Positions 5,557-55,235 of a stretch of DNA of 60,111 bases are shown here, piece by piece. Below the pieces are notes generated by a model, which was given only the letters and a program-made list of their open reading frames with translations, made no database searches and was not told the origin of the DNA. A program made the position numbers and the translations under genes. This DNA comes from Phragmitibacter flavus (GTDB lineage Bacteria; Verrucomicrobiota; Verrucomicrobiia; Verrucomicrobiales; Verrucomicrobiaceae), in assembly GCF_005780165.1 (NCBI RefSeq), contig NZ_VAUV01000025.1, positions 1 through 60,111 on the forward strand. Reading direction: 5' to 3'. The first letter of the stretch is position 1. Each line of letters opens with the position of its first letter.

Positions 5557-5611
5557 CACCAATAGAAACGAACCAACCCCTCAACACGAACGCACACGAT
5601 TCAAAGAAGCT

Positions 5612-7707: not shown

Positions 7708-7776
7708 AGGAGTGCGGGGTTGAGGGTGGTTGAGGGATCCAAAAAGAGTTGAGTGAACCAATAAATCGTGACGAAC

Positions 7777-8994: not shown

Positions 8995-9055
8995 GGTGTT
9001 TCAATCGAGAAGGTTGGAGTCTTGGGATTTGGTTGAGAGGAAAGCCGCTTAAGGT

Positions 9056-10054
9056 TCAGTTGCTGCGAGCCAGCGTTTCCCGACGCAACGCCGGTTTGTG
9101 CAGAGGATCATTCACCACCGAGCCATCATGAAAAGTCACCGGAACATTGAGCTGCACCAAAAGATTCACGCTCGCCAGATTCCAGTCCTTCTCTTCAGAC
9201 AGCTCAACAATTCGCGCCATGCGCTGCATCTGGTCCTGCAAATCGTGACGTGGAAAAACCGCAGTCACCTGATTCTCAAAAACCGCCTTGAATGCATAGG
9301 CTCGCGAAGCATCCACCCGCTTCAAACGGATCAAATGACTCAGCCCGGTGACATGATGCTGTTGGATAAAGTTTAAAGCCGCCAGCACATCAGGCGAATC
9401 AATGCCCTGACCCGGAATCAAGCGTCCCACATCCGCCACCTCAATCACCGGCAAAGCCCGCTGCTCATCCGACAACTCACCACTGGGCACCACAAATCCT
9501 TCCGCATCAAGCAGACAACCCCGACCCGCCACTTTGGCATCGACATTCTTCCCTTTGCACTCCAACCAGGCCACCGGCGTGCGTTGCATCACCTCAAGAA
9601 ACACAATGCCGGGATATCCGCGAGTCACTTTCGCCGACTTCACCTGCGGCAGCGCCGTGAGCTGCTCCTTCACCCGCACGAGCGAAACCGACAGCATGTT
9701 CACCCCCTCATGAAGACCGGAAGCCTCCACGATCTGACCCGCAGACAAACCCGCCGCTCCATCCGTCACCACCGAAATGTGTTTCAACTGAAACCTTTCG
9801 TTCTCCATGAAGGCCTGCTTCACCACAATCACCCCGGCGCTAAACAGTCCCATCACAAACAGCAATCCCGCCGCCACCTTAACGCCCGCACCTGCCGTGC
9901 GCAGACGCTTCTGACGCCGCGTGGCATCCGTCTCCGGGTTCAGCTCCATGCGATGCCGCACCTCCAGACGTGTCACCTTCGCTTTCTTGCGACGGAAAAC
10001 GAAGTTGCCCTGCACCTTTTTGGTCTTGCGACGAATGTTGCCGGAAAAGAACAT
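9056..10054 (-). CDS. ftsQ: Cell division protein FtsQ
   Basis: FtsQ is a bitopic divisome protein that bridges the Z-ring to septal peptidoglycan synthases. Here it has a long basic cytoplasmic N-terminus (residues 1-53, rich in K/R), one membrane segment at about 55-79, a POTRA domain at about 89-165, and a periplasmic beta domain. Sequence identity is expected to be low, so the call rests on this topology and on its position between ddl and ftsA. The start ATG lies 2 bp after the ddl stop codon, which suggests translational coupling. The cytoplasmic tail of about 50 residues is longer than in E. coli. Confidence 0.92.
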   Translation of the reverse strand: MFFSGNIRRKTKKVQGNFVFRRKKAKVTRLEVRHRMELNPETDATRRQKRLRTAGAGVKVAAGLLFVMGLFSAGVIVVKQAFMENERFQLKHISVVTDGAAGLSAGQIVEASGLHEGVNMLSVSLVRVKEQLTALPQVKSAKVTRGYPGIVFLEVMQRTPVAWLECKGKNVDAKVAGRGCLLDAEGFVVPSGELSDEQRALPVIEVADVGRLIPGQGIDSPDVLAALNFIQQHHVTGLSHLIRLKRVDASRAYAFKAVFENQVTAVFPRHDLQDQMQRMARIVELSEEKDWNLASVNLLVQLNVPVTFHDGSVVNDPLHKPALRRETLARSN

Positions 10055-10056
10055 GG

Positions 10057-10995
10057 TTAAGCCAAAGTTACCTCCCTGGCACCCCGTGCCTGAAGGGACA
10101 ATTCAACAATTCGCTCCATCAACTGTGGAAACTCAATCCCGGCCGCAAGCGCGGCCTTGGGCAGCAGACTGCTCACCGTCATCCCGGGGATTGTGTTCAC
10201 CTCCAGCACAAACGGCTCGCCGTCTTCGCGCAGGATCACATCCACCCGGCCATAAACTTCAATCCCAATGGATCTCATCGCCGCCAGCGCAGCCGACTGC
10301 ACCCGCGCTGTGGTCGCCTCATCAAGGTCTGCTGGACAATGATAAAGCGTTTTGCCCGTGCCACCCATCCAGGGATATTTGTTATTGATGTCGTAAAAAC
10401 CGCTCACCGGCTCAATATGAATCACTGGCAGCACCTGCTCGCCGAGCACACCGACTGTCAGCTCTTTACCGTCGATCAATTCTTCGACCAGCGTTTCGTC
10501 TCCAAAGCGCTTCGCGTCGTCCAATGCCACCGCCAGCTCGTCTTCCGTGCGCACTAAATGCACACCCACACTCGACCCCTCACGCGGCGGTTTCACCACC
10601 AACGGCAACGACAGTTTCAACTCATCGCTGCCATTCAATTTTAAGGTCTGACTGCGCGGCGTCGGCACTCCAGCCGCCAAAAACTTCTCTTTGCTCAGCA
10701 GTTTATCGAACGCCACACGGCTCGACTCCACCCCGGCGCCAGTGTAGGCAACGCCTTGTTTTTCTAAAGCCTCCTGTAATTGCCCATCTTCACCAAATGT
10801 GCCGTGAATCATGTTCACCGCCACCAAAACTCCCTCAGGAACGACCACATCCGTCGAGGTAACATCCACTTCAACCACTTCTGCACCAAGCGATTGCAAC
10901 GCTTCCGACACACTCTCCGCTGATTTCAGCGAGACCGCACGCTCTGAGCCAGGTCCGCCTTTCAAAACAGCAATAGTGTGATTTTTCAGATTCAT
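10057..10995 (-). CDS. ddl: D-alanine--D-alanine ligase
   Basis: Ddl joins two D-alanines for the peptidoglycan stem peptide. The 312-residue ATP-grasp protein shows the N-terminal motif GGPGSERAVSLKSAESV, the ATP-binding segment VVKPPREGSSVGV, and the metal/catalytic end EVNTIPGMT. The ATG at 10995 is clear. It is the first gene of the minus-strand ddl-ftsQ-ftsA-ftsZ run. murC and murB, which normally precede it in dcw clusters, are absent; instead a spacer of about 0.5 kb separates it from the polysaccharide locus. Confidence 0.96.
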   Translation of the reverse strand: MNLKNHTIAVLKGGPGSERAVSLKSAESVSEALQSLGAEVVEVDVTSTDVVVPEGVLVAVNMIHGTFGEDGQLQEALEKQGVAYTGAGVESSRVAFDKLLSKEKFLAAGVPTPRSQTLKLNGSDELKLSLPLVVKPPREGSSVGVHLVRTEDELAVALDDAKRFGDETLVEELIDGKELTVGVLGEQVLPVIHIEPVSGFYDINNKYPWMGGTGKTLYHCPADLDEATTARVQSAALAAMRSIGIEVYGRVDVILREDGEPFVLEVNTIPGMTVSSLLPKAALAAGIEFPQLMERIVELSLQARGAREVTLA

Positions 10996-11477: not shown

Positions 11478-12932
11478 ATGTTGCTTATCCCCCGGGGCGA
11501 TCACATAGCAAATCTCAACGGACTCATGATCTCACAACGTGCACGAGGATTGGCTACGCTGCATGCGACCGCACAAGCGGTGGTGTCACTAATAATCTTC
11601 TGGTGTTGGGCCGGTCTCCATTTCGAGCTGCGTGCCTCAGCGGTGCAGCCCGACTACGCCCGCTATGCCCAATATTCATTGCTCGTAGTGCTCGCCCACT
11701 ATCTCGATCTGGCGTTGTCCAACCGCAAGGACGTCAACCTTCTCTATCTGGACATGGCGGTCAACTCACGCATCAGTCTCCGCCAATGCGCCAACGTCTC
11801 CTTGGTCCTCATGGCCTACCTCGTTGCAGTGAAGGACAGCATGATTTCCCGCGCCTTTTTGTTCAGCTGGATTCCCCTCCTCTACTCTGCGCTCTTCATT
11901 ACCAACAAATACCTGCCCCGGCTCCTTGCCTCTGCCGCTTTCTACACTGCCCGCCGCCACCGCATCCTGTTTGTGGGTTCCAGCAAACACACTGATCGTC
12001 TCAAAATCTGGGCCGACCGACGTGCGCTCTATGGGTTTGAAACCATCGGCATTGTGCCAACCGATGGCGAAGTTCCAGACGACTCCTGTCTCCGTATGCT
12101 TGGCAAACCGGAAGACCTTGCAAAAGTGCTTCTGCGTGAGCGCCCCTCTCATTTGATCCTGACCGAATTTTCCACCCAGTCAAACGAGGGCCGCAAAATC
12201 GCCGACCTCTGTGAGCGCAACGGAGTTCGGCTTCTGATCGTGAATGACCTTTCCGATTACCTCGGTCGTCCGGTGGCTGTGGTCGAGCACGATGAGTTTT
12301 GCCTCATGGGCCTGCGTCGCGAACCACTCGAAAGTCCATTCAATCGAGTCGTGAAACGTGCGCTCGACATCATCATCGCGATACCTGTCGTGTTTATCGT
12401 CATTCCCATCACCAGCGTGTTCGTCTGGCTCGGGCAACGTATTCAATCCCCTGGCCCGGTATTCCACCGTCAAACCAGATCCGGCATCAACAACCGCGAT
12501 TTCACCATCATCAAATTCCGCACCATGCACGTGCATGACGGCAGTCAGGATCAGCAAGCCACCCGCGGTGATGCCAGGGTCTATCCTCTGGGGCGGTTCC
12601 TTCGCCGCTTCAGCCTTGATGAGTTGCCGCAGTTCATCAATGTGCTGAATGGCGAGATGAGTGCCGTCGGCCCACGTCCCCACCTGCCCGCCCACAACGA
12701 CTGGTTCATGGAAGAGGTCAACCACTACAACGTGCGCACCTTCATCAAACCCGGCATCACCGGCCTTGCCCAGGTGCGTGGCCATCGTGGTGAAACCAAG
12801 TGCAAGGACCAGATCAACGCCCGTATCGACATGGACCTCCACTACGTGGAAAACTGGTCGCTCACCCTTGACCTGATGATCGTCCTCCGCACCATGCGCC
12901 ACATGGTGCTGCCTCCCAAGTCGGCCTACTAA
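11478..12932 (+). CDS. Exopolysaccharide initiating sugar-phosphate transferase (WcaJ/EpsE-like)
   Basis: This is a membrane phosphoglycosyl transferase that loads the first sugar-1-phosphate onto undecaprenyl phosphate. The N-terminal half has about four membrane helices and a CoA-binding-like Rossmann domain. The C-terminal half is the catalytic bacterial sugar transferase domain: a membrane helix (RALDIIIAIPVV), then SPGPVFHRQTRSG, FTIIKFRTM, SLDELPQFINVL, GEMSAVGPRPH and IKPGITGLAQVRG. The protein is 484 residues from the ATG at 11478. The internal ATG at 11526 (MISQRARG) matches the usual start of relatives and may be the real one. It is divergent from ddl and convergent with the GT cluster it presumably feeds. 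Confidence 0.95.
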   Translation: MLLIPRGDHIANLNGLMISQRARGLATLHATAQAVVSLIIFWCWAGLHFELRASAVQPDYARYAQYSLLVVLAHYLDLALSNRKDVNLLYLDMAVNSRISLRQCANVSLVLMAYLVAVKDSMISRAFLFSWIPLLYSALFITNKYLPRLLASAAFYTARRHRILFVGSSKHTDRLKIWADRRALYGFETIGIVPTDGEVPDDSCLRMLGKPEDLAKVLLRERPSHLILTEFSTQSNEGRKIADLCERNGVRLLIVNDLSDYLGRPVAVVEHDEFCLMGLRREPLESPFNRVVKRALDIIIAIPVVFIVIPITSVFVWLGQRIQSPGPVFHRQTRSGINNRDFTIIKFRTMHVHDGSQDQQATRGDARVYPLGRFLRRFSLDELPQFINVLNGEMSAVGPRPHLPAHNDWFMEEVNHYNVRTFIKPGITGLAQVRGHRGETKCKDQINARIDMDLHYVENWSLTLDLMIVLRTMRHMVLPPKSAY

Positions 12933-40970: not shown

Positions 40971-42323
40971 TCAAACTAACACTGAAGGACGCGACTGGCT
41001 GGCTGGCAGTTCGGCGTCGGCGGCATGGTGGTTGTGATTGGCGTTGGCGTTGGGTTCGGAGGAGGTCACCAGCTTCCATGAGTAGTCAAACCTCATCATT
41101 CCAGGTCGGGAGTCCGGCATTTTCCCGTTCGGACCAACGGCAGGTTCGACTTCAAACTGGATCACATCGGAAATGGCGTCACTGGCGGAACCGCCAATCA
41201 AAAGCCCACAGCGCAAGCTATACCTGCCGGGCAGCAGATTGTTCGGCGCGATCCACGATTCCAGCGCGCTGGCACCTTGCGGAAGTTCGTCACAATCAAG
41301 AGTGTCGTTGTGATGCGAGGTGAACAAGGTGGTGCCTCTCATGTCCACCACCGAATAACCTATAAGGATATCCGAAACCGGCTCCTGACTTTCAATGGTC
41401 AAACGCAATCCAATTTTTTCGCCAATCAGGAAGGCGTTGCCACGACGTTCCACTTCGGCTTTTTCATGCAGGAACTCGCACGACACAAAACGCGCCACCC
41501 CCGACCCGGAACGATCCAGGCGATCACGCAGACAAACCTGATCCCGGTCCTCGCCCGACGCCGACATCTTCATGTAAGCCGCAATGCCGCCCTCGACATC
41601 GCCATCCATCATCAAGGTGCCGCGATCAAGCATCAGCACCCGGCTGCACATGGCCTGCACGGCTGCCAGTTGATGACTGACAAACAACACCGTGCGTCCC
41701 TGCCCCGCCACATCTTCCATCTTGCGGATGCACTTTCTCTGGAACTGCATGTCCCCCACTGCCAGCACTTCATCCACAATCAGAATTTCCGGATCAAGAT
41801 GGGCCGCCACTGCAAATGCCAGACGCAGATACATGCCCGATGAGTAACGTTTGACGGGGGTGTCGAGAAATTTTTCCACTTCGGCGAATTCAACGATCTC
41901 ATCGAAGCGCCGGTTGATGTCGCGTTTGGTCATGCCGCAGATGGCACCGCTCAAGCTGATGTTTTCCCTGCCGGTCAACTCAGGATGGAATCCCGTTCCC
42001 ACTTCCAACAGGGTTGCCAGCCGACCTTTCATCCGGATCCGCCCCGTGGTCGGCTCCGTGATCCGGCTCAACAACTTCAACAAGGTGGACTTGCCTGCGC
42101 CGTTGCGCCCAATGATCCCCACCACCTCACCTTGCTTCACCTCAAATGACACATTCTTCACCGCCCAGAACTCTTCCACCGAGCTGGCGCTCTTGTTTTT
42201 TGAAGGGCGGATGATCCCCGATGCCTTCTGCGCAATCAGATCACGCAGGGTGCTGTAACGCTCCCGGTTTTCATGCCGGACGCGATACGCCTTTCCCAAA
42301 TCTTCTACCTTGATAACAGTCAT
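40971..42323 (-). CDS. wzt: ABC exporter ATPase Wzt, with a C-terminal glycan-binding domain
   Basis: This is the ATP-binding subunit of a polysaccharide/O-antigen exporter. It has Walker A GRNGAGKST (72-80), signature YSSGM (160-164) and Walker B ILIVDE (180-185). Residues from about 255 to 450 form an extra C-terminal beta-rich domain. In the Wzt family this recognises the capped end of the finished O-chain before export. It pairs with the permease 16 bp upstream. The presence of this domain suggests the glycan is completed in the cytoplasm and chain-terminated, possibly by the adjoining methyltransferase. Confidence 0.95.
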   Translation of the reverse strand: MTVIKVEDLGKAYRVRHENRERYSTLRDLIAQKASGIIRPSKNKSASSVEEFWAVKNVSFEVKQGEVVGIIGRNGAGKSTLLKLLSRITEPTTGRIRMKGRLATLLEVGTGFHPELTGRENISLSGAICGMTKRDINRRFDEIVEFAEVEKFLDTPVKRYSSGMYLRLAFAVAAHLDPEILIVDEVLAVGDMQFQRKCIRKMEDVAGQGRTVLFVSHQLAAVQAMCSRVLMLDRGTLMMDGDVEGGIAAYMKMSASGEDRDQVCLRDRLDRSGSGVARFVSCEFLHEKAEVERRGNAFLIGEKIGLRLTIESQEPVSDILIGYSVVDMRGTTLFTSHHNDTLDCDELPQGASALESWIAPNNLLPGRYSLRCGLLIGGSASDAISDVIQFEVEPAVGPNGKMPDSRPGMMRFDYSWKLVTSSEPNANANHNHHAADAELPASQSRPSVLV

Positions 42324-42339: not shown

Positions 42340-43185
42340 TCAGATCACGTCTGCGAAGCGGCGCTCGGTCGCACGGAAGTAGCGGAGGCCAGTGATCAAA
42401 ATGACCACCACCAACCCTCCTGAAAGCAACAGACCGGGAAGGTGCAGATGGTTCCCTCCCCCCAAAATGGCCCACCGGAAACCATCAATCACTCCGACCA
42501 TCGGATTGATCGAATAGACGAGCCGCCATTCGTCAGGAACCACGGAACTGCTCATCCCCACCGGCGAAACATAGAGCCCGAACTGCACGATGAACGGCAC
42601 AATGTAGCGGAAGTCCCGATAGGTGACATTCAAAGCAGCCAGCCAAAGCCCCACTCCAATCGCCAGCCCGAGTGCCATCAACAAAAAGCCAGGAATAAAG
42701 ACCACCCTCCAGCTCGGCATCCATTGAAACCACACCATCAGCAGCACCAGAAACATGGCAGCGATCAAAAAGTCCACCAACGCGGTAATCACTGAAGCCG
42801 CAGGAATGATGAGTCGCGGGAAGTAAATTTTGCTCACCAGATTGGCATTGCCAACCAAACTTCCGCTCGCCTCGCTCATCGCGCGGGAGAAGAACTGCCA
42901 GGGCAGCAAGGCCGCAAAAACAAAAAGTGGGTAAGGAACGCCATGAGATGGCATGTTTCCCAGCTTGCCAAACACCACGGAAAAAATGATCATGGTAAGC
43001 AGTGGTTGAATTAATGCCCACGCAATTCCAACCACCGTTTGCTTATAACGCACCAAAATGTCCCGCCAAGCCAGGAAATAGAACAATTCACGAAACCGCC
43101 ACAAATCTCCCCAATAATGACGCTCCACCTTCCCTGCTTGTATATCGAGATCGAAATCGATGGTGACATTGGAAGGTTCACTCAT
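42340..43185 (-). CDS. wzm: ABC exporter permease Wzm
   Basis: This 281-residue integral membrane protein has six helices. It carries the ABC-2 polysaccharide exporter start LVRYKQTVVGIAWALIQPLL, the GKLGNMPS loop and WQFFSRAMSEASGSLVGNANLV. It forms the inner-membrane channel with Wzt and moves undecaprenyl-linked glycan to the periplasm. It is the first gene of the 43-17 kb minus-strand run, so its upstream spacer should hold the main promoter. The ATG at 43185 is clear. Confidence 0.95.
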   Translation of the reverse strand: MSEPSNVTIDFDLDIQAGKVERHYWGDLWRFRELFYFLAWRDILVRYKQTVVGIAWALIQPLLTMIIFSVVFGKLGNMPSHGVPYPLFVFAALLPWQFFSRAMSEASGSLVGNANLVSKIYFPRLIIPAASVITALVDFLIAAMFLVLLMVWFQWMPSWRVVFIPGFLLMALGLAIGVGLWLAALNVTYRDFRYIVPFIVQFGLYVSPVGMSSSVVPDEWRLVYSINPMVGVIDGFRWAILGGGNHLHLPGLLLSGGLVVVILITGLRYFRATERRFADVI

Positions 43186-43494
43186 AAATCTTCTAATTCT
43201 ATAAATATCAACGAGATGTGACTATTGATGGTGCCCTTGTGAACAATAGGCACTCTTTTTTGATGGACACGCTGCCGCCACCGGTGGAGCAGTCACTCTC
43301 CATCGCTTCATCTGACATCACGAGCATGCAAAAACACGCTTACAGTGATTTTTCCTTATACAAGACCTCTTATACATTAGCAAAGCAAATGCCACATTAG
43401 TCACAAGATTTTGCTTTAAGTCATATGCGGATTTAAATTGACGGGCGAATCCCGCCGTTTGGACTATGTTGATTGCGCCAAAACACCCCTGTTA
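43186..43494. other. Divergent spacer upstream of wzm and the O-antigen ligase-like gene
   Basis: This is a spacer of about 310 bp between two divergent genes. It contains a perfect 10-bp palindrome CCACCGGTGG (43278-43287) and, for the rightward gene, a weak promoter-like pair TTGCTT (43411-43416) and TAAATT (43434-43439) 17 bp apart. The leftward promoter for wzm could not be resolved by eye. Confidence 0.45.
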
Positions 43495-45141
43495 ATGAAT
43501 CAAAACAAAGCCGACGCACTCCAGGAAATCCGCAATCGCATGCTCGCCACGAGCGGGGCCAGCCATTCCACGCCTCACGTAGGACGGTTCGCCACCGGAT
43601 TGAAGGCGTTGACGGGATGGGCGCTGGCAGGTGCCCTTATCCTTGCCCCCTGGCTTTACGGCGGAACCCGCCCGTGGACCGTTGGCCTGCTAAATATGAT
43701 CCTGCTCGGCATTGTCGTGCCATGGCTGTCGATTGCGGTGATCTCCAAAACCTTCTTCAAACTGCCCCGTGTGCTGCTGGCAGCCGCATTCCTGCTGCTG
43801 CTGCAAGGTTGGTGGATGACTTTGAATGCCCACTTTGTGCATGACAGCGAATATTCCACCTTCGCCCCGGCCGCGACGTGGAGCGAGAACGCCCCTGGTT
43901 CCGTGGACAAGATTTCCTCATTGGACATGATGTTGCGCATCAGCGCGCTCGTCGGGGTGGTTTTGATGGGTTGCGATCTCTCCCGATCACGCCGCTGGCG
44001 CATGCGTTTATGGTGGGCTTCCTGCATCGCGGGCATCTCGGTGATCTTGCTCGGTCTCATCCAAAAGCTCGCGGAGGCGCCGATGATTTTCTGGCAGGGA
44101 GGGCGAACCGGGCATCATTTTTTCGCCACCTATCTTTATCACGGCAACGCCGGGGCTTTTATCAACCTGGTTCTGCCTTTGGTGGCCGGACTAAACTTCA
44201 TGGTTTTTCAAAAGGGCCGCACCACGGCCATGACCTTCATGGCATCCGGACTTCTGATCTGCGTGGCGGGTGCCTTCTCTCACGCCTCCAAAGCGGGTGC
44301 CGCCGTCAGCGTCTTCCTGATGCTGGTGCTGATGGTCTGGCAGGCACGGCTGTTTTTGGGCTACGGGAATTTGCATCAACAGCGCGCCTCCAATCTGCTG
44401 TCGTTCGGCATCGGCATTGCCGCCGTTATCGCCGTCGTGCTGGCGGTTGGCTGGCAGTTCGCGGCACAACGGTGGCATTTGTTTGATGTCAGCCGGGATG
44501 CCCGGATGTTCACCTACAACATGTGTCACAGCATGCTCCCGGATGCCGGCGCTTTCGGATTCGGGCCCGGCACCTTCAGCATCATGTTTGACCGCTATGC
44601 GCTGGCGGCCAATCCTGCCATGCAGGTCTTCTACCGCTACGCCCACCAAGATTACATGCAGGCACTGATCGAATGGGGTTGGGTGGGGGCCTCCCTGATG
44701 GGGACGATTTTTTTCGGCGGCCTGTTGGGCAGTTTCTGGCGGTATTTTGCCAATTCCCAAGACTGGCGCAGTTATGAGCGCGTGCTCGTGTTCAGCATCG
44801 GACTGGCATTGCTCGGCGTCGCCATGCATGCTGCGGTCGATTTCCCTCTGCAGATTTACTCCCTGCAATTGTTCGCCGCCGTCTACCTTGGCCTTGCTTG
44901 GGGCAGCGGATCATGGACCCGCCCTCCCGGCAACCGCAATGAAGGACGACGCAGGGCGGCGAAGGAAAGAATCAAGCGCCGTTCGCACCCCGAGTCCGAC
45001 CACAAGACTCCCACGAATAAACCTATCACCGAGAACTCCGCCACCGGAGAACAAAGCGCCAAGAAGTCCGCCACCGAAAAGCGAAGCGCCAACAAGTCCC
45101 CCACCGAAAAAAGAAACTCCAAAGCCAAACGGGGTCGATAA
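43495..45141 (+). CDS. O-antigen ligase/polymerase family membrane protein
   Basis: This 548-residue protein starts from the ATG at 43495; a TTG at 43438 is less likely. It has about 10-12 helices, a large periplasmic loop after residue 330 and FGFGPGTFSIMFDRYALAANP and HQDYMQALIEWGWVG in the C-terminal half, as in WaaL-type ligases. The C-terminal tail of about 65 residues is hydrophilic and lysine-rich with repeated SATEKRSANKSPTEKR-type units. As a WaaL-like enzyme it would attach the glycan to lipid A core; a polymerase role is an alternative. It is the only rightward gene here, convergent with the BY-kinase. Confidence 0.8.
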   Translation: MNQNKADALQEIRNRMLATSGASHSTPHVGRFATGLKALTGWALAGALILAPWLYGGTRPWTVGLLNMILLGIVVPWLSIAVISKTFFKLPRVLLAAAFLLLLQGWWMTLNAHFVHDSEYSTFAPAATWSENAPGSVDKISSLDMMLRISALVGVVLMGCDLSRSRRWRMRLWWASCIAGISVILLGLIQKLAEAPMIFWQGGRTGHHFFATYLYHGNAGAFINLVLPLVAGLNFMVFQKGRTTAMTFMASGLLICVAGAFSHASKAGAAVSVFLMLVLMVWQARLFLGYGNLHQQRASNLLSFGIGIAAVIAVVLAVGWQFAAQRWHLFDVSRDARMFTYNMCHSMLPDAGAFGFGPGTFSIMFDRYALAANPAMQVFYRYAHQDYMQALIEWGWVGASLMGTIFFGGLLGSFWRYFANSQDWRSYERVLVFSIGLALLGVAMHAAVDFPLQIYSLQLFAAVYLGLAWGSGSWTRPPGNRNEGRRRAAKERIKRRSHPESDHKTPTNKPITENSATGEQSAKKSATEKRSANKSPTEKRNSKAKRGR

Positions 45142-45348: not shown

Positions 45349-47481
45349 TCATGAGGCAACTGGTTTGCCGTAAACGGGCTTGCCATAGGAGCCGCTATAA
45401 TAATGGTAATACAGACCGCTGTTACGACGGGCAGGGAGCATGTTGAGGATGATGCCGGAAGGAGCCTTTCCAGCCTCTTCCAACATTTGTGCCGCGCGAA
45501 TCACCGCCTTGCGGGGGGTTTTCGAGCAGCGCGCCACCAGACAGACAAACTTGCAGAAACTGACCATGTGCAGCGTATCGCTGACGGCGTGGATCGGCGC
45601 GGTGTCCAATACCACACGATCAAATTTGCCCTTGAGGGAGTCAAAAAATTCAGCCAATGCCGGGGACGCCAGAAGTTCCGCCGGATTGCGAATTTCCGTG
45701 CCTGCGGAAAGGATGAACAGGTTTTCCGTGTTCGACACATGCAGCGCCTCTTCCAGCGTCACCTTGCCCTGAAGAACGTCTGCCAATCCCACCGAAACGC
45801 GGCCTTTGAAGAACAGCTCATTGACCATTGGGCGGCGCAAGTCCGCGTCAATCAACAGCGTGCGCTTGCCCAGGTTTGCCGACGAAATGGCATAGTTGGC
45901 TGAACAAAAGCTCTTTCCTTCAGACGGGATCGAACTGGTAAACAGAACCACTTCATCCTTGTCATGATCCTCCATCAGCTCCAGCGAACTGCGCAAAATT
46001 CGGAACGATTCCGCAATCGGAGAATTGGGGTCCTTCACCATCACCAGCGAATGGGCCGGAGACTTGAATTTTGAACTCTGCGGCAATGCGGCAATCACCG
46101 GAACATCCGTGGCTGCCTCCGCCTGGTCGACGGTGCGCAGGGTATCATCGAACGCGTGAATGCCGAAAGCCAGAGCCAAACCGAACACCAAGCCCACCCC
46201 CAAACCAATCAACCAGGTCCTCATCTTACGAGGTTTCGAAGGATCTTCTGCCACCTGCGGAGTTTCAACCACCCGCCACGGAGCAAACTCGATGGTCCGG
46301 GTAATGTCCGTTTCCTTCAATCTCTTCTGAACGGAGGCATACAGTGCCTGGTTGGACTCCACATCGCGGGCCAGCGCATTGTATTCAATGGCGATCTTGC
46401 CCAAATCGAGCGCCAGTCGCTCCTGCTCGGCCAATCCTTGGGCCACCTTCTGCTCCGTGGCCAGTGCGGAGTTGTAGGCATTCTCCATGCCCTCGGCCGC
46501 AAGAGCAATGTTCTCCAACTGACTGCGCTGAAGATCCTTCAAACGATCCTGCATTTGGATAAACCTGGGATGTTTCGGACGGTAACGTTGGGAGAGATTT
46601 GCCATCTCCGATTCAGCAAGGCTGATCTGACTGCGCAATTCCGCAACGGCACGCTGGTTGGCGATGCTGGGAATGCTGAGCAGTTTGTAAAGATCGTTGC
46701 CCGCCGTCTTCACCTGCTCACGGTCGTTTTCCAGCCGGATGCGGTCCGTCTTCGACTGCGTCAAACGAACGTTCAGGTCGCGGAGTTTTTCGGTGACGAT
46801 GTTCTGTTTCTCTTCAAGAGACACCGCCTGACGTTCATCCTTGTAGTTTTGCAAGGCGAGCTCGGAATCTGCCAGCGCCTTGGCAAGTCGCTTCGATTCT
46901 GCCGCCAGAAACTCATTGGCCAGGGTCCCCGCATTGGCACGCGATTCAATGTTTTGACCGATTGATTCTTCGATCAGCATGCCCGCGATTTTTTGCGCCC
47001 TTTCAGGAACCTGATCCTCGACGGACACTTCAATCAAACGGGTCCCCTTGCGGATGGTGATGTCGATTTCCGACTCCAATGCATCTACCAGCTCCGGCTC
47101 GGTCATGATGTAATCGCGCACCTCGGGGAAGGTCATGTCTTTGCCCAATTCCGCCCTGCGAACCACACGCAGCAACAAATCGCGGTTCTTGAGGTTTTCC
47201 ATGATGGTCGCGAGAAGGTCGTTCATCCGCAAATCCTGCGGGTTAACTTCCTGCACACTGTCCAGAACCTTGGTCTCGGACTGCTCGACCTGAACCACCA
47301 CCCGCGACTGGTAGAGCGGGACGGAACGAACCAACATGGCAGCAACAATGAAGGCTGCCACCAGCAGGCAAAGAACAATCAACCAAGCCTTGTCGCGTAA
47401 GACATGAAATATGTCACTGTAAGTAAAGGCGGTGGTTGAATCGTATTGGATTTTTCGACTCGAAGCTGGAGATTTGCGCAT
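45349..47481 (-). CDS. Polysaccharide co-polymerase with BY-kinase domain (Wzc-like)
   Basis: This 710-residue protein joins a Wzz chain-length domain to a bacterial tyrosine kinase. It has TM1 at 33-51, a periplasmic coiled-coil region to about 400, TM2 at 422-444, and then the cytoplasmic kinase: Walker A SSIPSEGKS (516-524), Walker A' LLIDADLRRP (542-551) and Walker B DRVVLDTAP (621-629). The C-terminus carries a tyrosine cluster (Y691, 692, 694, 695, 699, 704) for autophosphorylation. It should control length and export of a Wzy-type polymer together with the OPX protein 39 bp upstream. Confidence 0.95.
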   Translation of the reverse strand: MRKSPASSRKIQYDSTTAFTYSDIFHVLRDKAWLIVLCLLVAAFIVAAMLVRSVPLYQSRVVVQVEQSETKVLDSVQEVNPQDLRMNDLLATIMENLKNRDLLLRVVRRAELGKDMTFPEVRDYIMTEPELVDALESEIDITIRKGTRLIEVSVEDQVPERAQKIAGMLIEESIGQNIESRANAGTLANEFLAAESKRLAKALADSELALQNYKDERQAVSLEEKQNIVTEKLRDLNVRLTQSKTDRIRLENDREQVKTAGNDLYKLLSIPSIANQRAVAELRSQISLAESEMANLSQRYRPKHPRFIQMQDRLKDLQRSQLENIALAAEGMENAYNSALATEQKVAQGLAEQERLALDLGKIAIEYNALARDVESNQALYASVQKRLKETDITRTIEFAPWRVVETPQVAEDPSKPRKMRTWLIGLGVGLVFGLALAFGIHAFDDTLRTVDQAEAATDVPVIAALPQSSKFKSPAHSLVMVKDPNSPIAESFRILRSSLELMEDHDKDEVVLFTSSIPSEGKSFCSANYAISSANLGKRTLLIDADLRRPMVNELFFKGRVSVGLADVLQGKVTLEEALHVSNTENLFILSAGTEIRNPAELLASPALAEFFDSLKGKFDRVVLDTAPIHAVSDTLHMVSFCKFVCLVARCSKTPRKAVIRAAQMLEEAGKAPSGIILNMLPARRNSGLYYHYYSGSYGKPVYGKPVAS

Positions 47482-47520
47482 GTGAGCAGCTGTAAGGGGT
47501 AATGTCGGCTATGAATTAAA

Positions 47521-48555
47521 TTAAAAGAAGGTGGTCGGCACGTTGATCGTATCGCCAGCCTGGATGATGAAAGGCTGCACCCCTTCGCGGGACATGCGCT
47601 TGGCATCCAGAGTGATCACTTCTTCCTTGCCGCCAACGTTGCGTTTGACGGTGACCTTTCCGGTGCGTGCCGTGCGGGTGAATCCACCTGCCGAACCAAT
47701 GGCATCCAGCAGGGTAACATCGCTGTCACGGGGCAGGTTGTAGCTTCCAGGACGCTGGACCTCGCCAAGGATGGTGAAACGTCCCATCGTGTATTCAATG
47801 ATCTTGAGGTTGACCTGGGGATTCACAATGTAATCTGCGTCCAGCTTGCGGCGGATCATCTCCACCGCCTCGTTCACCGTGCGACCGCCGATTTGGGTCA
47901 CGCCGATCAGTGGAAAGTTGATGGTGCCATCCTGGGAAATCCTTGCCTCCGTCGCCAAATCGTTTTCCTGAAAGACGGTGATCTCCACGTAGTCGTTGGG
48001 CGACAGCACGTAGTTGCCTGCGGGCTGCTCGCCAGGCGACCGGGTTGGAGCCTCCTGGCTTTTAAGGGCAGAGGTTGCATCCACCGATTCCCAGCTGGGC
48101 AATGGGAGAATCGAAGAACTCTCCGTCGCCTGCCCCAAAGGCGCGACCACCACGTCGCTCGACTCCAAAGCCATATTGCCTGTCGCCGCAGAAGGAGACG
48201 CAGCGGTGCGGCGCATGGCCTCGTTGCTTGCCTGATCAGCCTCTTCCGGCGTCAATTGCTTGAATGCGTTCGTCTCCTTGATGGAGGCATCCATCCTTGT
48301 CTCGCGGGCTCCTGAACTTTGGTCTTCCACAAGGGTTGCCTGCGAGGCCGGGGCAGCAACGGCCTGGGGAGCGGGTGTCTGACTCTGCGCTTGCGGCGCA
48401 CGCTGGCGTGCGGAGGATCTGGAAAAGATGGAACTGCTCTCACGAAGATCCATGGACGGCATCTGAGCCACTCCCCCCTGGGGAAAGACACTGGCAACCG
48501 CGAGGATCAAACACCCTGTCAAACGCAGGGTCGATGGCACAGAAAACAATCGCAT
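47521..48555 (-). CDS. Outer-membrane polysaccharide export (OPX/Wza-type) protein without a C-terminal helix
   Basis: This 344-residue protein has a signal peptide (residues 1-31) and a disordered A/P/S-rich stretch (about 32-180) with no family match. A Poly_export domain spans 181-255 (YVLSPNDYVEITVFQENDL, then DGTINFPLIG) and one SLBB domain spans 258-343 (LGEVQRPGSYNL, AGGFTRTARTG). It ends directly after the SLBB fold at TINVPTTFF, so the C-terminal amphipathic helix that forms the outer-membrane pore in E. coli Wza is missing. LTGC at 12-15 lies before the hydrophobic stretch, so it is unlikely to be a lipobox. The adjacent beta-barrel may supply the channel. Confidence 0.92.
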   Translation of the reverse strand: MRLFSVPSTLRLTGCLILAVASVFPQGGVAQMPSMDLRESSSIFSRSSARQRAPQAQSQTPAPQAVAAPASQATLVEDQSSGARETRMDASIKETNAFKQLTPEEADQASNEAMRRTAASPSAATGNMALESSDVVVAPLGQATESSSILPLPSWESVDATSALKSQEAPTRSPGEQPAGNYVLSPNDYVEITVFQENDLATEARISQDGTINFPLIGVTQIGGRTVNEAVEMIRRKLDADYIVNPQVNLKIIEYTMGRFTILGEVQRPGSYNLPRDSDVTLLDAIGSAGGFTRTARTGKVTVKRNVGGKEEVITLDAKRMSREGVQPFIIQAGDTINVPTTFF

Positions 48556-48586
48556 AGGATAATTTCAACTAACTTAAGATGAAAGC

Positions 48587-48621
48587 ATCAGCAATGCCAT
48601 CTAATAGACGCCATTGCTGAT
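48587..48621. repeat. Perfect 10-bp inverted repeat between the barrel and OPX genes
   Basis: ATCAGCAATG (48587-48596) is exactly complementary to CATTGCTGAT (48612-48621), with a 15-nt loop. It lies 19 bp past the stop of the beta-barrel gene and 32 bp before the OPX start. No T-run follows on the minus strand, so it is more likely an mRNA-processing or attenuating hairpin than a terminator. Confidence 0.65.
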
Positions 48622-48639
48622 ACCCAAAATGAGACAGGC

Positions 48640-50457
48640 TTAAAATGTGAGGCTGATCTGCAAACCGACCTGGCTGTTGTCGAATCCGGTGCCATTGTCG
48701 TCAGAGGTAAGATCGCGGAACAGATAATACAGTTCCACATCGAACCAGCGACCGGCGTAGCTAAGGCTTGGACGGACAAAGAAGTAGTCGTAGTCAGCCG
48801 CAATTGTCCCTGGCGCACTGGCAATGTCATACTCGACGTGATCGTAGCCACCTTTCACCCCGAGGGTAAAACGCTCGAACAGACGCTGGCTGAATCCGGC
48901 GGACGCTCCGGTAAGGATGGTGTTCACGCCTGGGAAGATCGCAGATGGCTCGATGTTGCGGTGACCTTCGATGGCGAAGTTGGTGCCGTCACGAATGTTC
49001 CACTGACCAGAAAGCCCAAATACGAAGTAAGTTTCATCATTCCCGACGTCGAGTTGACGGAATTCCGCACCGAGACTGGTGTTCAAGGTCACCCGACCGG
49101 TCGCCAGGTAATTCATCACCAGCAACACTTGCTGGAAGTCTTCCTGACCACGCTCATCAGCGTCCACCTGCCCATACACGCCGGTCAGACCTGCTTGGAT
49201 TTTGGGGGTGATGCTGGTCAGAATCCCGGCGCTCGTTGTCCAGGCTTGAGAATCGATAAACTCATCGTAATCGCGATCCGAGTAGCTGCCCGAGAACACA
49301 AACAGGGTGCGGTCGGTGTAGGCGAACTTGGCATTCACACCGGCCTGGAAGCTGGTGAGATCCACGCGATCTCTAATTTCCACCGCGCCGAGATCGGAAC
49401 TGGTGCCCTCACGAATGGCATAACCAGCGCTTCCACCGAACGTCCAGCGACCTGTCACCACCTGCGCTTCAACCGCCAGCTGATGGGAGAAGTTGTCTTC
49501 ACCTTCAAGCTCTTCGACATCATAGTAGGTGTAGGCAGGCGAATAATCGAGGGCGAGGTAATTGCCGCTGCGTGACTCATAATCACCGAGAGCCACGTTG
49601 ATGCCAAGCGTCTGGGTGAAGATGAAGGACGAGATTTTGTCGTTCTGGCGAAGGAAAACGTTGTCATCATAGACGACTCCGGTTGCGGCGCGGACCGTGA
49701 CGTTCACGTTCAGATCACTGAGCGGGCCGCCGGCCATGTTTTCGACGCCTTTGGGGAAGATGCTCTCTTTGGCGCTTTTGTGGCTGGAGCTGTAGTGACG
49801 CGTCACATTGCTAAGGTGACCACTCGACTTGGCGTAGCGACCCGAAGGCACGCGCACCGTAGGATTGGTGATTTTTTCCTCGACGGTTTCTTCCTTGACC
49901 ACTTGCTGGCTTGCGGCAGGGGTCATGTCAGGCACCGCAGGTGGAGGCGCGTCCCCAGAAGCTGGGACGGGTGTAGGCAGTTCCTTTTCCTTGGCAGGCT
50001 TGGAGCCCACTGGTGCCGGTGGCACAGGAGGTGCGTCCGAGGCTGGAGGGGTGGATTCAGGTGCCTTCGGCTTGGGTGCCTCAGGAGTTGAGACAGGTTT
50101 TGGTGCAGGAGTCGGCGCAGCAGGAGTCGGCGTTGGCGTGGGCGTTGGCGTTGGCGTAGGGGCCGGGGCTGGAGGCGGAGTCGCCATGGGAGCCGGTGTC
50201 GGCGTTGGCGTTGGCGCAGCTGGCGGAGGAGTCGGCGCTGTTTCAGGAGGCGCTGGCAAGGTCGGCGCCATGTTAGGATTACCGGCGCGACGTCGCTCCA
50301 TCCGCTCCCTCGCGCTCAAGGGCGCTTCATCGTCATTTTTCGCATCTGCACTCGTCTCTTGCGAGCGGGCTGGAAACCCAACTGAGGCGACCACCAGAAC
50401 GGCGCAGGCACCGACGATGTTGGAAAACTGTTTCAATGGGCGTGTCTTGCGTCGCAT
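48640..50457 (-). CDS. Outer-membrane beta-barrel protein of the export module
   Basis: This 605-residue protein has a signal peptide (about residues 1-32), a proline/threonine-rich linker (about 55-200, largely PTPTPTP) and a C-terminal region from about 235 with alternating hydrophobic/aromatic strands. It ends in SLTF with a terminal phenylalanine, the barrel-assembly signal. The strands recall putative capsule/exopolysaccharide beta-barrels that accompany helix-less OPX proteins. It lies between the FecR-like gene and the OPX gene in the same operon, which suggests it is the outer-membrane channel. The proline-rich linker could span the periplasm. Confidence 0.85.
   Translation of the reverse strand: MRRKTRPLKQFSNIVGACAVLVVASVGFPARSQETSADAKNDDEAPLSARERMERRRAGNPNMAPTLPAPPETAPTPPPAAPTPTPTPAPMATPPPAPAPTPTPTPTPTPTPAAPTPAPKPVSTPEAPKPKAPESTPPASDAPPVPPAPVGSKPAKEKELPTPVPASGDAPPPAVPDMTPAASQQVVKEETVEEKITNPTVRVPSGRYAKSSGHLSNVTRHYSSSHKSAKESIFPKGVENMAGGPLSDLNVNVTVRAATGVVYDDNVFLRQNDKISSFIFTQTLGINVALGDYESRSGNYLALDYSPAYTYYDVEELEGEDNFSHQLAVEAQVVTGRWTFGGSAGYAIREGTSSDLGAVEIRDRVDLTSFQAGVNAKFAYTDRTLFVFSGSYSDRDYDEFIDSQAWTTSAGILTSITPKIQAGLTGVYGQVDADERGQEDFQQVLLVMNYLATGRVTLNTSLGAEFRQLDVGNDETYFVFGLSGQWNIRDGTNFAIEGHRNIEPSAIFPGVNTILTGASAGFSQRLFERFTLGVKGGYDHVEYDIASAPGTIAADYDYFFVRPSLSYAGRWFDVELYYLFRDLTSDDNGTGFDNSQVGLQISLTF
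50120..50260. repeat. Low-complexity PT/PA repeat in the barrel gene
   Basis: Tandem GGCGTT/GGCGTG/GGCGCA hexamers encode alternating Pro-Thr and Pro-Ala on the minus strand. The clearest tract is about 50126-50160, with a second at about 50198-50220. Units of two codons keep the reading frame on slippage. Confidence 0.7.
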
Positions 50458-50502
50458 AGGATGGCAGATTGGGAGTGGTTGCGGTTGATGATGCTGGGAT
50501 GA

Positions 50503-51297
50503 TTACTGTTCGGGAGAAACGATAGGGCGGCCCTCTGGCGGGCGTCTGACTGGGGGGGTTCTGGGTTCTACTGGGGGCACGCCTGGCGGCAAAGCTGAAA
50601 ACTCACCATAAATACGCTCAAGCGTGTCAATGCAAACTAATCCCAAAGTATCTGCACGCTCAATGGTTTGTTGCAAATTGATCAAATCCGACTGCGCGTC
50701 ACTATTTCCCTCTGCTGGCTGCGGGGCAGACGAAGGGGAGGCACCCGAAACCGAGGCAAATTCACCCGCTGCAACCACAAACGTTTCCCCCGACGCATTG
50801 GTGACGGAGACCTTGCCAGAAAACACCGTCAGGGTCGTCTCGCCAGAAGCTGACACCGCCGCAGAAAACACTGCTGCATTGGAAATGCTAAGCACACCCC
50901 CTGGAATGCTCACCCTGCCCTGCATGCCCTGCATGATGAACGAAACCTGACCGCGTGACAAGGTGAACTCACCGGCACGGGCAGTCACCCCGGCGGCCTT
51001 GCGGACCAGTTGCAGTTTGTCCAAGGAAAGCGATGCATCAGCCCCCAACTCCAGCGATGAGCAAGGCGTCAATTTCATCACGGCACTACCATCAGCACCA
51101 GCGACCAATAGGCCACCAGGACCAACACGAGCCCCTTCAATAACGTCGACTTGCGCCAACCCACCAACGGAGGTCCCGGTCGACACATTTCCCTGAACTT
51201 TTAATATGGTTCCAAAAATCGTCTCCGCTTTGGCCGACGTGGCTGCGAGCATGACAACTAGGAGAATGGGTAAGATTTTAGTGCGCATATCGGTCAT
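50503..51297 (-). CDS. FecR-domain periplasmic protein
   Basis: The protein is 264 residues from the ATG at 51297 (a second ATG at 51288 is possible). It has a signal peptide (LPILLVVMLAATSAKA) and a FecR-type beta domain: AQVDVIEGARVGPGGLLVAG, GSAVMKLTPCSSLELGADASL and SRGQVSFIMQGMQGRVSIPGGVLSI. A proline-rich tail follows. FecR-like domains often accompany export or signalling systems and bind partners in the periplasm. It is the first gene of the export operon behind a good promoter. The longer frame to 51357 overlaps that promoter and is rejected. Confidence 0.85.
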   Translation of the reverse strand: MTDMRTKILPILLVVMLAATSAKAETIFGTILKVQGNVSTGTSVGGLAQVDVIEGARVGPGGLLVAGADGSAVMKLTPCSSLELGADASLSLDKLQLVRKAAGVTARAGEFTLSRGQVSFIMQGMQGRVSIPGGVLSISNAAVFSAAVSASGETTLTVFSGKVSVTNASGETFVVAAGEFASVSGASPSSAPQPAEGNSDAQSDLINLQQTIERADTLGLVCIDTLERIYGEFSALPPGVPPVEPRTPPVRRPPEGRPIVSPEQ

Positions 51298-51335
51298 GCC
51301 TAATATAAGTTCATCTGATTGATTAGGTTGCGCGG

Positions 51336-51364
51336 AGTAAACTATCCTAATGCACATCTGTCAA
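51336..51364 (-). promoter_or_regulatory. Sigma-70 promoter of the export operon
   Basis: On the minus strand TTGACA (51364-51359, a perfect -35) and TTTACT (51341-51336, 4/6 for -10) are separated by exactly 17 bp. The start of transcription would be near 51329, giving a leader of about 32 nt to the ATG at 51297. This is the best promoter seen by eye in the window. Confidence 0.7.
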
Positions 51365-53648: not shown

Positions 53649-55235
53649 ATGAGTTTCGCCCACTCTCACCTCATCACCATCAGCCTCCTCGCATCGCTCC
53701 CTGCGCTCAGCGCCAAGGAGATTGACAAACCGGACTTCAACGCCCACGTCCGCCCCATCCTGGAGGCCGCCTGCTTCAACTGCCATAACGAGAAATCCGA
53801 CAAGGGCGGACTCAACCTCACCACGCTCGAAACCACCATGGCCGGTGGCGACAATGGTGACGCCCTCGTCCCCGGCAAACCTGCCGACAGCCTGCTCTAT
53901 TCCACCACCATCCTCCCGGAAGACGATGACATGGTCATGCCTCCGCCCAAGGAGGGTCTGCTCACCAAAGCCCAAACCGAAATCCTCCGACTCTGGATCG
54001 AACAAGGCGCCAACTGGCCCAAAGACGTTGTGCTTCAGCAGAAGCCGCGCATGAATTTCGCCAAACACATCAAACCCATCCTTGATGCCCGGCTCGCCAG
54101 CGGCGGCCCCGTCAAAGCCGACGAAGCTTACATGCTCCGACTCTGGACCGAACAAGGTTCCGTCTGGCCTGAAGGCACCGCCGCTCCCGGCACCGAAGCT
54201 CCCAAACCTGCCGCCCCCGCCGCCAAACTCGACGGCATGGAACTCGTCAAACGCATCCACGCCCACATCGTTGCCACCTCCAAGGAAAAAGCCGAGGCCG
54301 ACATGAAACCCTACGACAGCCGCGGCCCCAAATCCGACGCCCCCTACAGCATGCTTGTCATCAAGGGCGGCGAATTCCTCATGGGCAGTCCTGAAGGAGA
54401 AGCCGAACGAAAAGACGACGAAGGCCCGCAGGTCAAAGTGAAGGTCAAACCCTTCTGGATGGGCAAACACGAAGTCACCTGGGACGAATACACCCCGTTC
54501 ATGGTCACCGAAGTGGGTCGCAACAAGGACGGCTCCAAACAAAGCGGCAAAGCCGACGAGCCGATCACCGAAATCATCAGCCAGCCCACCACCCCCTACA
54601 CCGAAATGTCCTTCGGCATGGGCACCGATGGCTACCCCGCCATCAGCATGACCCAGCATGCCGCCAACAAATTCTGCCAGTGGCTCAGCGCCCAGACCGG
54701 TCATTTTTACCGACTCCCCACCGAACAGGAATGGGAATACGCCGCCCGCGCTGGCACCACCACCGCTTATTATTGGGGCGATGACTCCGCCGGGGTCGCC
54801 GACTACGAGTGGTATTACGACAACGCCCCCAACTTCCAGTATTCCCAAGTCGGCAAAAAGAAACCCAACCCCTGGGGCCTTTACGACATCCTCGGCAACG
54901 TCGCCGAATGGACTCTCGACCAATACACGCCCGACTATTACAAAAACCTCAAGGCCATGGCTCCCGACAAAATCGCCGGATACTACGTGCCCTCCACCAC
55001 CCCCTATCCGCACACCGCCCGAGGTGGTTCGTTTGATGACGACCTCGTCCGTCTTCGTTCCGCCTCCCGTCGTGGTTCCGCCCCCGATTGGAAACAGCAG
55101 GACCCGCAGCTTCCGAAAAGCATCTGGTATCACACCGATGCCAAATTCCTCGGCTTCCGTCTTGTCCGCCCCCTCGAAATCCCCTCCCCCGAAGAGATGT
55201 TTAAATATTGGAACAACGGCGTCGAAAACGAATAA
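53649..55235 (+). CDS. Cytochrome c (PSCyt-type) plus SUMF1-domain protein
   Basis: This 528-residue protein has a signal peptide (about 1-22) and a Planctomycete-type cytochrome c domain with one CXXCH haem site (C42-F-N-C45-H46) and a likely axial Met in MVMPPP. A shorter repeat (about 137-175) matches it (HIKPILDAR, LRLWTEQGSVWPEG) but has lost CXXCH. Residues from about 225 form a SUMF1/FGE-like domain (VIKGGEFLMGSPEG, RLPTEQEWEYAARAG, WGLYDILGNVAEW, ARGGSF). The cysteines of true formylglycine-generating enzymes are absent, so it should not make formylglycine. Function is unknown; similar fusions are common in planctomycetes. Confidence 0.88.
   Translation: MSFAHSHLITISLLASLPALSAKEIDKPDFNAHVRPILEAACFNCHNEKSDKGGLNLTTLETTMAGGDNGDALVPGKPADSLLYSTTILPEDDDMVMPPPKEGLLTKAQTEILRLWIEQGANWPKDVVLQQKPRMNFAKHIKPILDARLASGGPVKADEAYMLRLWTEQGSVWPEGTAAPGTEAPKPAAPAAKLDGMELVKRIHAHIVATSKEKAEADMKPYDSRGPKSDAPYSMLVIKGGEFLMGSPEGEAERKDDEGPQVKVKVKPFWMGKHEVTWDEYTPFMVTEVGRNKDGSKQSGKADEPITEIISQPTTPYTEMSFGMGTDGYPAISMTQHAANKFCQWLSAQTGHFYRLPTEQEWEYAARAGTTTAYYWGDDSAGVADYEWYYDNAPNFQYSQVGKKKPNPWGLYDILGNVAEWTLDQYTPDYYKNLKAMAPDKIAGYYVPSTTPYPHTARGGSFDDDLVRLRSASRRGSAPDWKQQDPQLPKSIWYHTDAKFLGFRLVRPLEIPSPEEMFKYWNNGVENE

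Follow-up and report, generated by a model that had tools for sequence, protein, structure and literature searches.

A probable two-part outer-membrane translocon in a verrucomicrobial glycan locus: a Wza-type protein without a pore helix next to a predicted 18-stranded beta-barrel

How would a polysaccharide cross the outer membrane when the modelled export protein of its gene cluster contains no membrane-spanning part? This question is raised by a contig of Phragmitibacter flavus (NZ_VAUV01000025.1; G000:C25:1-60111), which has a length of 60,111 nt (hereafter the window), belongs to a 5.9-Mb genome and is filled for the most part by a glycan locus. On its minus strand, a gene for an outer-membrane polysaccharide export (OPX) protein of the Wza family (47521-48555) is directly preceded by a gene for a predicted outer-membrane beta-barrel (48640-50457). 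We propose that together they encode a composite translocon that takes a polysaccharide across the outer membrane, with a probability of roughly 0.8, because of the domain content, the lack of a pore helix in the OPX protein, the predicted fold of the barrel, the conserved pairing of the genes, the matching classes of the two proteins, and two papers from 2022 in which translocons of a D1D2-OPX protein and a beta-barrel were published (PMC9601211, PMC9603273). An OPX protein without pore helix that works with a separate barrel had already been suggested in the initial annotation of this DNA, and that suggestion is well supported by the domains, the models of both proteins, the adjacency of their genes, the matching classes and the 2022 papers.

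The OPX protein (344 residues) contains one Poly_export domain (D1, Poly_export/PES motif, residues 177-252, 47800-48027; PF02563, E 8e-22) and one SLBB domain (D2, residues 259-339, 47539-47781; domain scan and model), and in the Pfam scan the chain stops only 5 residues past the latter. Domain scans and model place it in the D1D2 type, with a Class 3 layout. A search of the genome returned the Poly_export domain at the same position. The AlphaFold2 model, based on an alignment of 30 sequences, has a predicted local distance difference test (pLDDT) score mostly above 90 for residues 181-344, with no helix past the SLBB domain, in agreement with the single SLBB domain and missing pore helix of the initial annotation. 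The ordered part comprises about 164 residues, and the length of 344 residues is due to an N-terminal extension. Following a putative signal peptide (residues ~1-31, 48463-48555, with an inferred cleavage site; helix at residues 9-23 in the model), residues 32-176 (48028-48462) constitute the disordered extension of about 150 residues that had been noted earlier, residues 24-180 being devoid of secondary structure with a pLDDT of ~45-60.

The best solved-structure match of the OPX protein is the crystal structure 9n9a, the Class-3 OPX protein WzaB of Myxococcus xanthus (E 8e-18, 37% identity), which is also the top solved match by sequence (E 1.5e-26). Wza chains rank after it, with 2j58 at 26% identity. 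The precedent named in the initial annotation, such pairings in Myxococcus with the Wzp barrels, is correct. In the NCBIfam scan, the protein matched EpsE (TIGR03028) with E 1e-30, far below the equivalog cut-off, and its nearest named relatives come from bins labelled Verrucomicrobiota, Spartobacteria or Planctomycetes-Verrucomicrobia-Chlamydiae (PVC) group.

The barrel gene encodes 605 residues and lies on the same strand as the OPX gene, at a distance of 84 nt. In the model of this protein alone, residues 251-604 (48646-49707) form 18 long strands, mostly with a pLDDT above 80, preceded by a disordered linker of 211 residues (residues 33-243, 49729-50361) consisting of 25% Pro, 15% Ala and 11% Thr. 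Each protein modelled separately thus has the architecture expected from the earlier reading: an OPX protein with a disordered extension and no end helix, and a barrel with a long proline-rich linker. Part of the Pro-Thr run of the linker is encoded by 6-bp tandem repeats (50129-50157 and 50201-50216). No family was found above its cut-off in the Pfam scan of the barrel protein, and the AlgE family was matched in neither the Pfam nor the NCBIfam scan. The latter gave a weak similarity to TIGR03016 (E 8e-6, 25 bits versus a cut-off of 90.85) and no match to TIGR03014 (EpsL). Among the barrels of relatives, seven out of nine scanned match EpsL TIGR03014 or TIGR03016 (best E 5e-22, all below cut-off), and two have no match. 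In VIA-align comparisons, a BenF-like porin and AlgE lead at Z 20.0, closely followed by Occ porins; the AlgE chains (Z 19.8-20.0, root-mean-square deviation (rmsd) 4.5, 305 aligned residues, about 10% identity) are tied with other porins. Foldseek ranked generic barrels first, and PgaA (4y25) at position 20.

The pairing of the two genes is conserved. With the window barrel as query, a barrel-domain match could be identified in 10 of the 37 other genomes of the order (three further genomes that matched in the low-complexity linker alone were left out), and in all ten a Poly_export gene adjoins the barrel gene or, in G029, is one gene off; in G001 and G018 they lie on different strands. With 11 aligned barrels as query, 115 genomes of the phylum assigned to the source genome, inferred as Verrucomicrobiota, were then searched (E <= 1e-10, own window excluded). 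This search yielded 55 barrel places, distributed over 35 genomes. At 46 of the 55 a Poly_export match lies no more than 4 kb away, and at half of the 46 no more than 600 bases; about 0.7% per barrel place would be expected by chance, assuming three OPX genes per 4 Mb. The co-occurrence across Verrucomicrobiota that the initial annotation had proposed as a check was thereby found. Our barrel profile also finds barrels beside OPX genes in Myxococcales bins.

The association is also seen from the side of the OPX genes. OPX genes were sampled systematically from these 115 genomes, which gave 75 complete frames, with about 4.5 kb on each side. The proteins were called non-extended when they end at most 3 residues past the SLBB domain, and extended when they have a C-terminal extension of at least 20 residues. 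An EpsL-type barrel is encoded near 30 out of 40 non-extended and none of 35 extended OPX proteins (Fisher p 1e-12), albeit that the frames are not independent, since a single genus (g12) accounts for 15 of the 35 extended ones. All 30 barrel genes are on the same strand as the OPX gene. For 53 complete frames from named loci, the corresponding numbers are 34 out of 36 and 1 out of 17, the exceptions being L086 and L094, where no barrel was found, and L084, with an 18-residue extension and a barrel. These counts reproduce within one phylum the dichotomy of PMC9601211.

Comparison of the pairs suggests that OPX protein and barrel are inherited as matched units. Their distances are correlated (Mantel r 0.85 for 73 pairs; maximum of 2,000 permutations 0.10), a value that is confounded by species descent, and as a control for descent 17 hand-picked pairs were compared. 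Two classes of five pairs each can be distinguished, within which the OPX proteins are 43-67% and the barrels 35-47% identical, compared to 30-45% and 17-24%, respectively, between the classes. Two genomes (G106 and G116) contain one pair of each class, and there the two OPX proteins of the same genome are only 34% and 32% identical, and the two barrels 23% and 20%. The other three genomes with two sampled pairs (G130, G129 and G090) each have one pair from a class that recurs in other genomes and one that stands apart, for both proteins alike.

The genome of P. flavus itself contains additional sets of this kind. Contig C1 (L226) encodes a 407-residue EpsL-like barrel, Wzc and an OPX protein, and contig C2 (L227) a 625-residue barrel, a 263-residue OPX protein and Wzc. 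On contig C14 (L228), a 590-residue TIGR03016-like protein (E 5e-6) is encoded near an OPX gene and could represent a third further set; it is not recognised by our barrel profile. A fifth Poly_export match, on C9, is below threshold.

Nearly all non-extended OPX proteins have a bulky hydrophobic residue at the C-terminus, found in 40/40 proteins of the phylum sample, 35/36 of the named loci and 11/11 of the relatives, frequently in a motif VPE[SR]xF. The idea that this conserved tail plugs the barrel was dropped, as a similar VPE/VPD/VND..F or W ends the SLBB domain in several extended OPX proteins, 18 of the 35 extended proteins also end in L, I or Y, and one barrel-paired OPX protein of the window's own genome ends in -HVSQ. 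The hydrophobic terminus may simply be part of the domain fold. Short OPX proteins ending in -RSPF, -RSAF or -KSAF were observed at L202, L207, L211 and L217, with no EpsL-type barrel within about 4.5 kb on either side.

In the translocon that we propose, the D1D2 units would form a ring beneath the outer membrane, by homology to EpsX/EpsY of M. xanthus, and a single copy of the 18-stranded barrel would sit on this ring and provide the passage through the membrane. Wzc, the predicted chain-length determinant and tyrosine autokinase encoded directly downstream of the OPX gene (45349-47481, minus strand; Wzz and GNVR domains, TIGR01007 above cut-off), would contact the ring from the inner membrane and regulate chain length, and the polymer would be supplied either by the Wzm/Wzt transporter of the locus or by a Wzx/Wzy route. 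As no lipobox is recognisable in the OPX protein, it is probably held at the outer membrane mainly by the barrel.

Several observations weigh against a composite translocon. On the side of the barrels, 9 of the 55 lack an OPX gene within 4 kb: for four of them the closest OPX gene of the contig is 57-505 kb distant, and the other five are on contigs devoid of OPX genes. Conversely, no barrel was detected near 10 of the 40 non-extended OPX genes, including L224, which is cut by the contig start, and the -RSPF/-RSAF/-KSAF group. The superposition of the OPX model on WzaB is loose across both domains (rmsd 5.9, TM-score 0.54 by target length). By a crude pattern no lipobox was found in the OPX protein, unlike in nearly all myxobacterial proteins described in PMC9601211; an LTGC sequence is present at residues 12-15, but it is preceded by an Arg and the hydrophobic stretch before it is too short. 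The same pattern was found in 4/11, 3/34 and 11/31 barrel-paired OPX proteins of three sets and in 14/35 extended ones, and PMC9603273 reports almost 50% SPII (signal peptidase II) and about 30% SPI (signal peptidase I) signals for Class 3. The length of 344 residues exceeds the empirical limit of 280 residues in the survey of PMC9601211. We take this limit as a survey filter, not as a defining or structural feature; among the barrel-paired OPX frames, 11 of 30 are longer than 280 residues, an upper bound as lengths were counted from the first start codon. The matching classes can arise from linkage alone, so that they support, but do not prove, contact between OPX protein and barrel. Finally, the barrel fold matches many porins, including uptake porins, and neither the substrate nor export can be read from a fold with matches spread so widely.

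This ambiguity of the fold bears on two other explanations. The barrel could belong to the pathway and serve as a surface anchor or organiser like Wzi of the E. coli group 1 capsule, the polymer leaving elsewhere; fold matches cannot tell a conduit from an anchor, and PMC9601211 treats Wzi as an 18-stranded barrel that is dispensable for export. We nevertheless consider this unlikely, since the OPX model has no membrane-spanning part and a pore needs another protein, and since this type of barrel tracks the non-extended OPX proteins, which is not required of a general anchor. Very improbable is an accidental neighbourhood, in which the barrel would be a porin for an unrelated solute. The BenF-like and Occ uptake porins among the top fold matches would fit such a role, as would the nine barrels remote from OPX genes, but the adjacency at 46 of 55 places across the phylum, the resemblance of the relatives' barrels to the EpsL/TIGR03016 proteins of polysaccharide loci and the matching of OPX and barrel classes all speak against it. 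The initial annotation had itself named two findings that would overturn it, a C-terminal transmembrane helix in a model of the OPX protein and a porin for an unrelated substrate. Neither came up: the model has no such helix, and the barrel type is tied to OPX genes across the phylum, although the fold by itself would also be compatible with another substrate.

The long disordered segments had been regarded in the initial annotation as possible couplers of the parts. Both are long and expected in the periplasm, which by simple arithmetic could be spanned by 211 residues of a Pro-rich chain, and the N-terminal parts of barrels are on the whole longer in verrucomicrobial loci than in those of Myxococcales; lineage-specific working couplers or tethers, acting for example via the peptidoglycan, would fit these properties. 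Nothing homologous to the extension, however, was found in the 2,202 frames of the collected loci, relatives with the same gene pair have at most 119 residues ahead of the barrel match, the hexamer repeat in the linker is open to slippage, and matches to the linker alone (query residues about 24-169) occur in other frames of relatives. Coupling is hence improbable, and this part of the earlier reading is unsupported. The N-terminal lengths of OPX proteins and barrels show a Spearman correlation of 0.35 (p 0.02, 43 pairs), to which we give no weight as it is uncorrected for descent and based on first start codons. A more elaborate and improbable variant is a lineage-specific translocon in which an OPX ring free of lipid anchors is held by the barrel, both proteins carry long disordered arms (145 residues in the OPX protein, in eight copies if it is an octamer, and 211 in the barrel) that would line the periplasmic path, gate it or extend to the peptidoglycan, and a FecR-like protein, common to some relatives of the family, would be a third subunit. 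If so, the published filter of at most 280 residues would miss such members.

The FecR-like gene (50503-51357, minus strand; PF04773, E 2e-4, just below cut-off) encodes a predicted secreted protein and is the first of four genes on the minus strand (45349-51357), followed by those for the barrel, the OPX protein and Wzc; the genes are separated by 45, 84 and 39 nt. Genes at the same position were found in four other genomes of the family, with a score above the FecR cut-off in G007 and weak scores in G002, G003 and G019, of which G003 and G019 belong to one genus. A profile built from these four genes and that of the window finds, by construction, only its four source genes among the 12 loci of relatives; it has no match in the 53 named loci and a single weak one in another 77 loci. 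The gene was accordingly dropped as a candidate for a universal subunit, given its near-absence outside the four relatives, and is at most a family-level feature; its product is possibly a third subunit or a regulator.

Between the barrel and OPX genes lies an intercistronic hairpin (48587-48621, assigned to no strand) with a 17-nt inverted repeat, 88% complementary, without a U tract (-29.5 kcal/mol, z -3.3). Both arms occur together without mismatch only at this site in the entire genome. A terminator and a genomic repeat were considered and rejected, as there is no U tract, no terminator call and only a single site in the genome. Many pairs of relatives have barrel/OPX gaps too short for such a hairpin. 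It could alter the relative expression of the two genes.

The context of the OPX gene is that of a polysaccharide pathway. Beyond Wzc are genes for a Wzy_C protein, a putative O-antigen ligase or polymerase (43438-45141, plus strand; PF04932 above cut-off in the genome scan, no match in the Pfam scans of its frame at E 1 and 0.01), a Wzm-like ABC-2 permease (42340-43185, minus strand; PF01061, E 7e-22) and a Wzt-like ATPase with a C-terminal Wzt_C domain (40971-42323, minus strand; PF00005, PF14524). The initiating phosphoglycosyltransferase of the locus (Bac_transf, 11478-12932, plus strand; PF02397, E 4e-60) is located further away, and the frames scanned in the locus also encode a glycosyltransferase, a WbsX protein, an FkbM methyltransferase and acyltransferases. 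The presence of Wzm/Wzt may point to an ATP-binding cassette (ABC) route for the polymer, and that of Wzc and the Wzy_C protein to a Wzy route. In a whole-genome search for PF01943, the sole flippase family searched, two Wzx matches above and one below cut-off were found, all on other contigs. A PEP-CTERM locus, an idea derived from the similarity to EpsL and EpsE, was discarded because the 60-kb contig has no exosortase; three are encoded elsewhere in the genome.

Other regions of the window were noted in passing. At 5749-10995, close to the glycan locus, are FtsZ-, FtsA-, FtsQ- and Ddl-like genes, as judged by eye from their translations, the FtsZ-like frame having a long Pro/Ala/Glu-rich tail. 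A single frame of 905 residues (2845-5562) combines a metallo-hydrolase part (RMMBL) with an ATP-dependent DNA ligase (N, middle and C domains), and at 53649-55235 a planctomycete-type cytochrome c domain (PSCyt1) is fused to a sulfatase-modifying-factor-like domain.

According to PMC9603273, most OPX proteins have no pore helix, so the way in which most secreted polysaccharides cross the outer membrane hinges on the generality of barrel pairing. Within Verrucomicrobiota such pairing is supported by the barrel-centred count, the OPX-centred count and the comparison of paralogous pairs, and the limit of 280 residues in the survey would skip N-extended members such as the OPX protein described here. 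PMC9603273 found homologues of three Wzp barrel sequences in myxobacteria only. The string 'Verrucomicrob' does not occur in the main texts of PMC9601211 and PMC9603273, although the PVC group is present in Figure 4 of PMC9601211 and the phylum may already be among its ten. Among the papers listed in a literature search that combined the phylum with OPX proteins and barrels, none has such pairs as its subject, judged by title; PMC3422733 predicts barrels in the phylum and, in the text available, does not discuss OPX pairs, and the subject of PMC11845990 is helical OPX pores. As far as the searches go, the member in the window, the phylum-level counts and the comparison of paralogous pairs are new.

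Among known systems, the alginate exporter AlgE shares with the barrel only its 18-stranded fold. E. coli Wza (Class 1) has in common with the OPX protein D1 and the first D2-type domain, but the window protein has neither the second beta-grasp domain nor the D4 helix of the octameric pore. The EpsL/TIGR03016 barrels and EpsE OPX proteins of PEP-CTERM/exosortase exopolysaccharide loci resemble both proteins in sequence, but here the contig has no exosortase and the scores are far below the equivalog cut-offs. The Class 3 layout Poly_export-SLBB is shared with WzaB/WzpB, WzaX/WzpX and WzaS/WzpS of PMC9603273. WzaB ends in VPE..F, as do many relatives, and the Wzp barrels (WzpX/S/B; MXAN_7418/3226/1916) can be compared with our barrel in fold and strand number, as given in the papers. 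The closest parallel in organisation is EpsY/EpsX of M. xanthus, for which PMC9601211 reports mutual stabilisation and interaction in pulldowns. In contrast to that system, which is like the present one in several respects, here no lipobox was found, the OPX protein has an extension of 145 residues and the barrel a linker of 211, Wzm/Wzt and an extra FecR-like gene are present, and the components are known from genes and models. The ABC context is not new, as 14 of the 453 short coupled OPX proteins in PMC9601211 were assigned to ABC routes. Shared by the two systems are an OPX protein with D1 and D2 only and no D4 helix, a polysaccharide co-polymerase (PCP) in the cluster, and an adjoining gene for an 18-stranded barrel with AlgE among the closest folds; a coupled barrel gene within five genes of the OPX gene is found here as the next gene upstream. 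The mechanism itself is thus not new, and the pair described here is probably a well-supported further example of the two-piece gate of Myxococcus.

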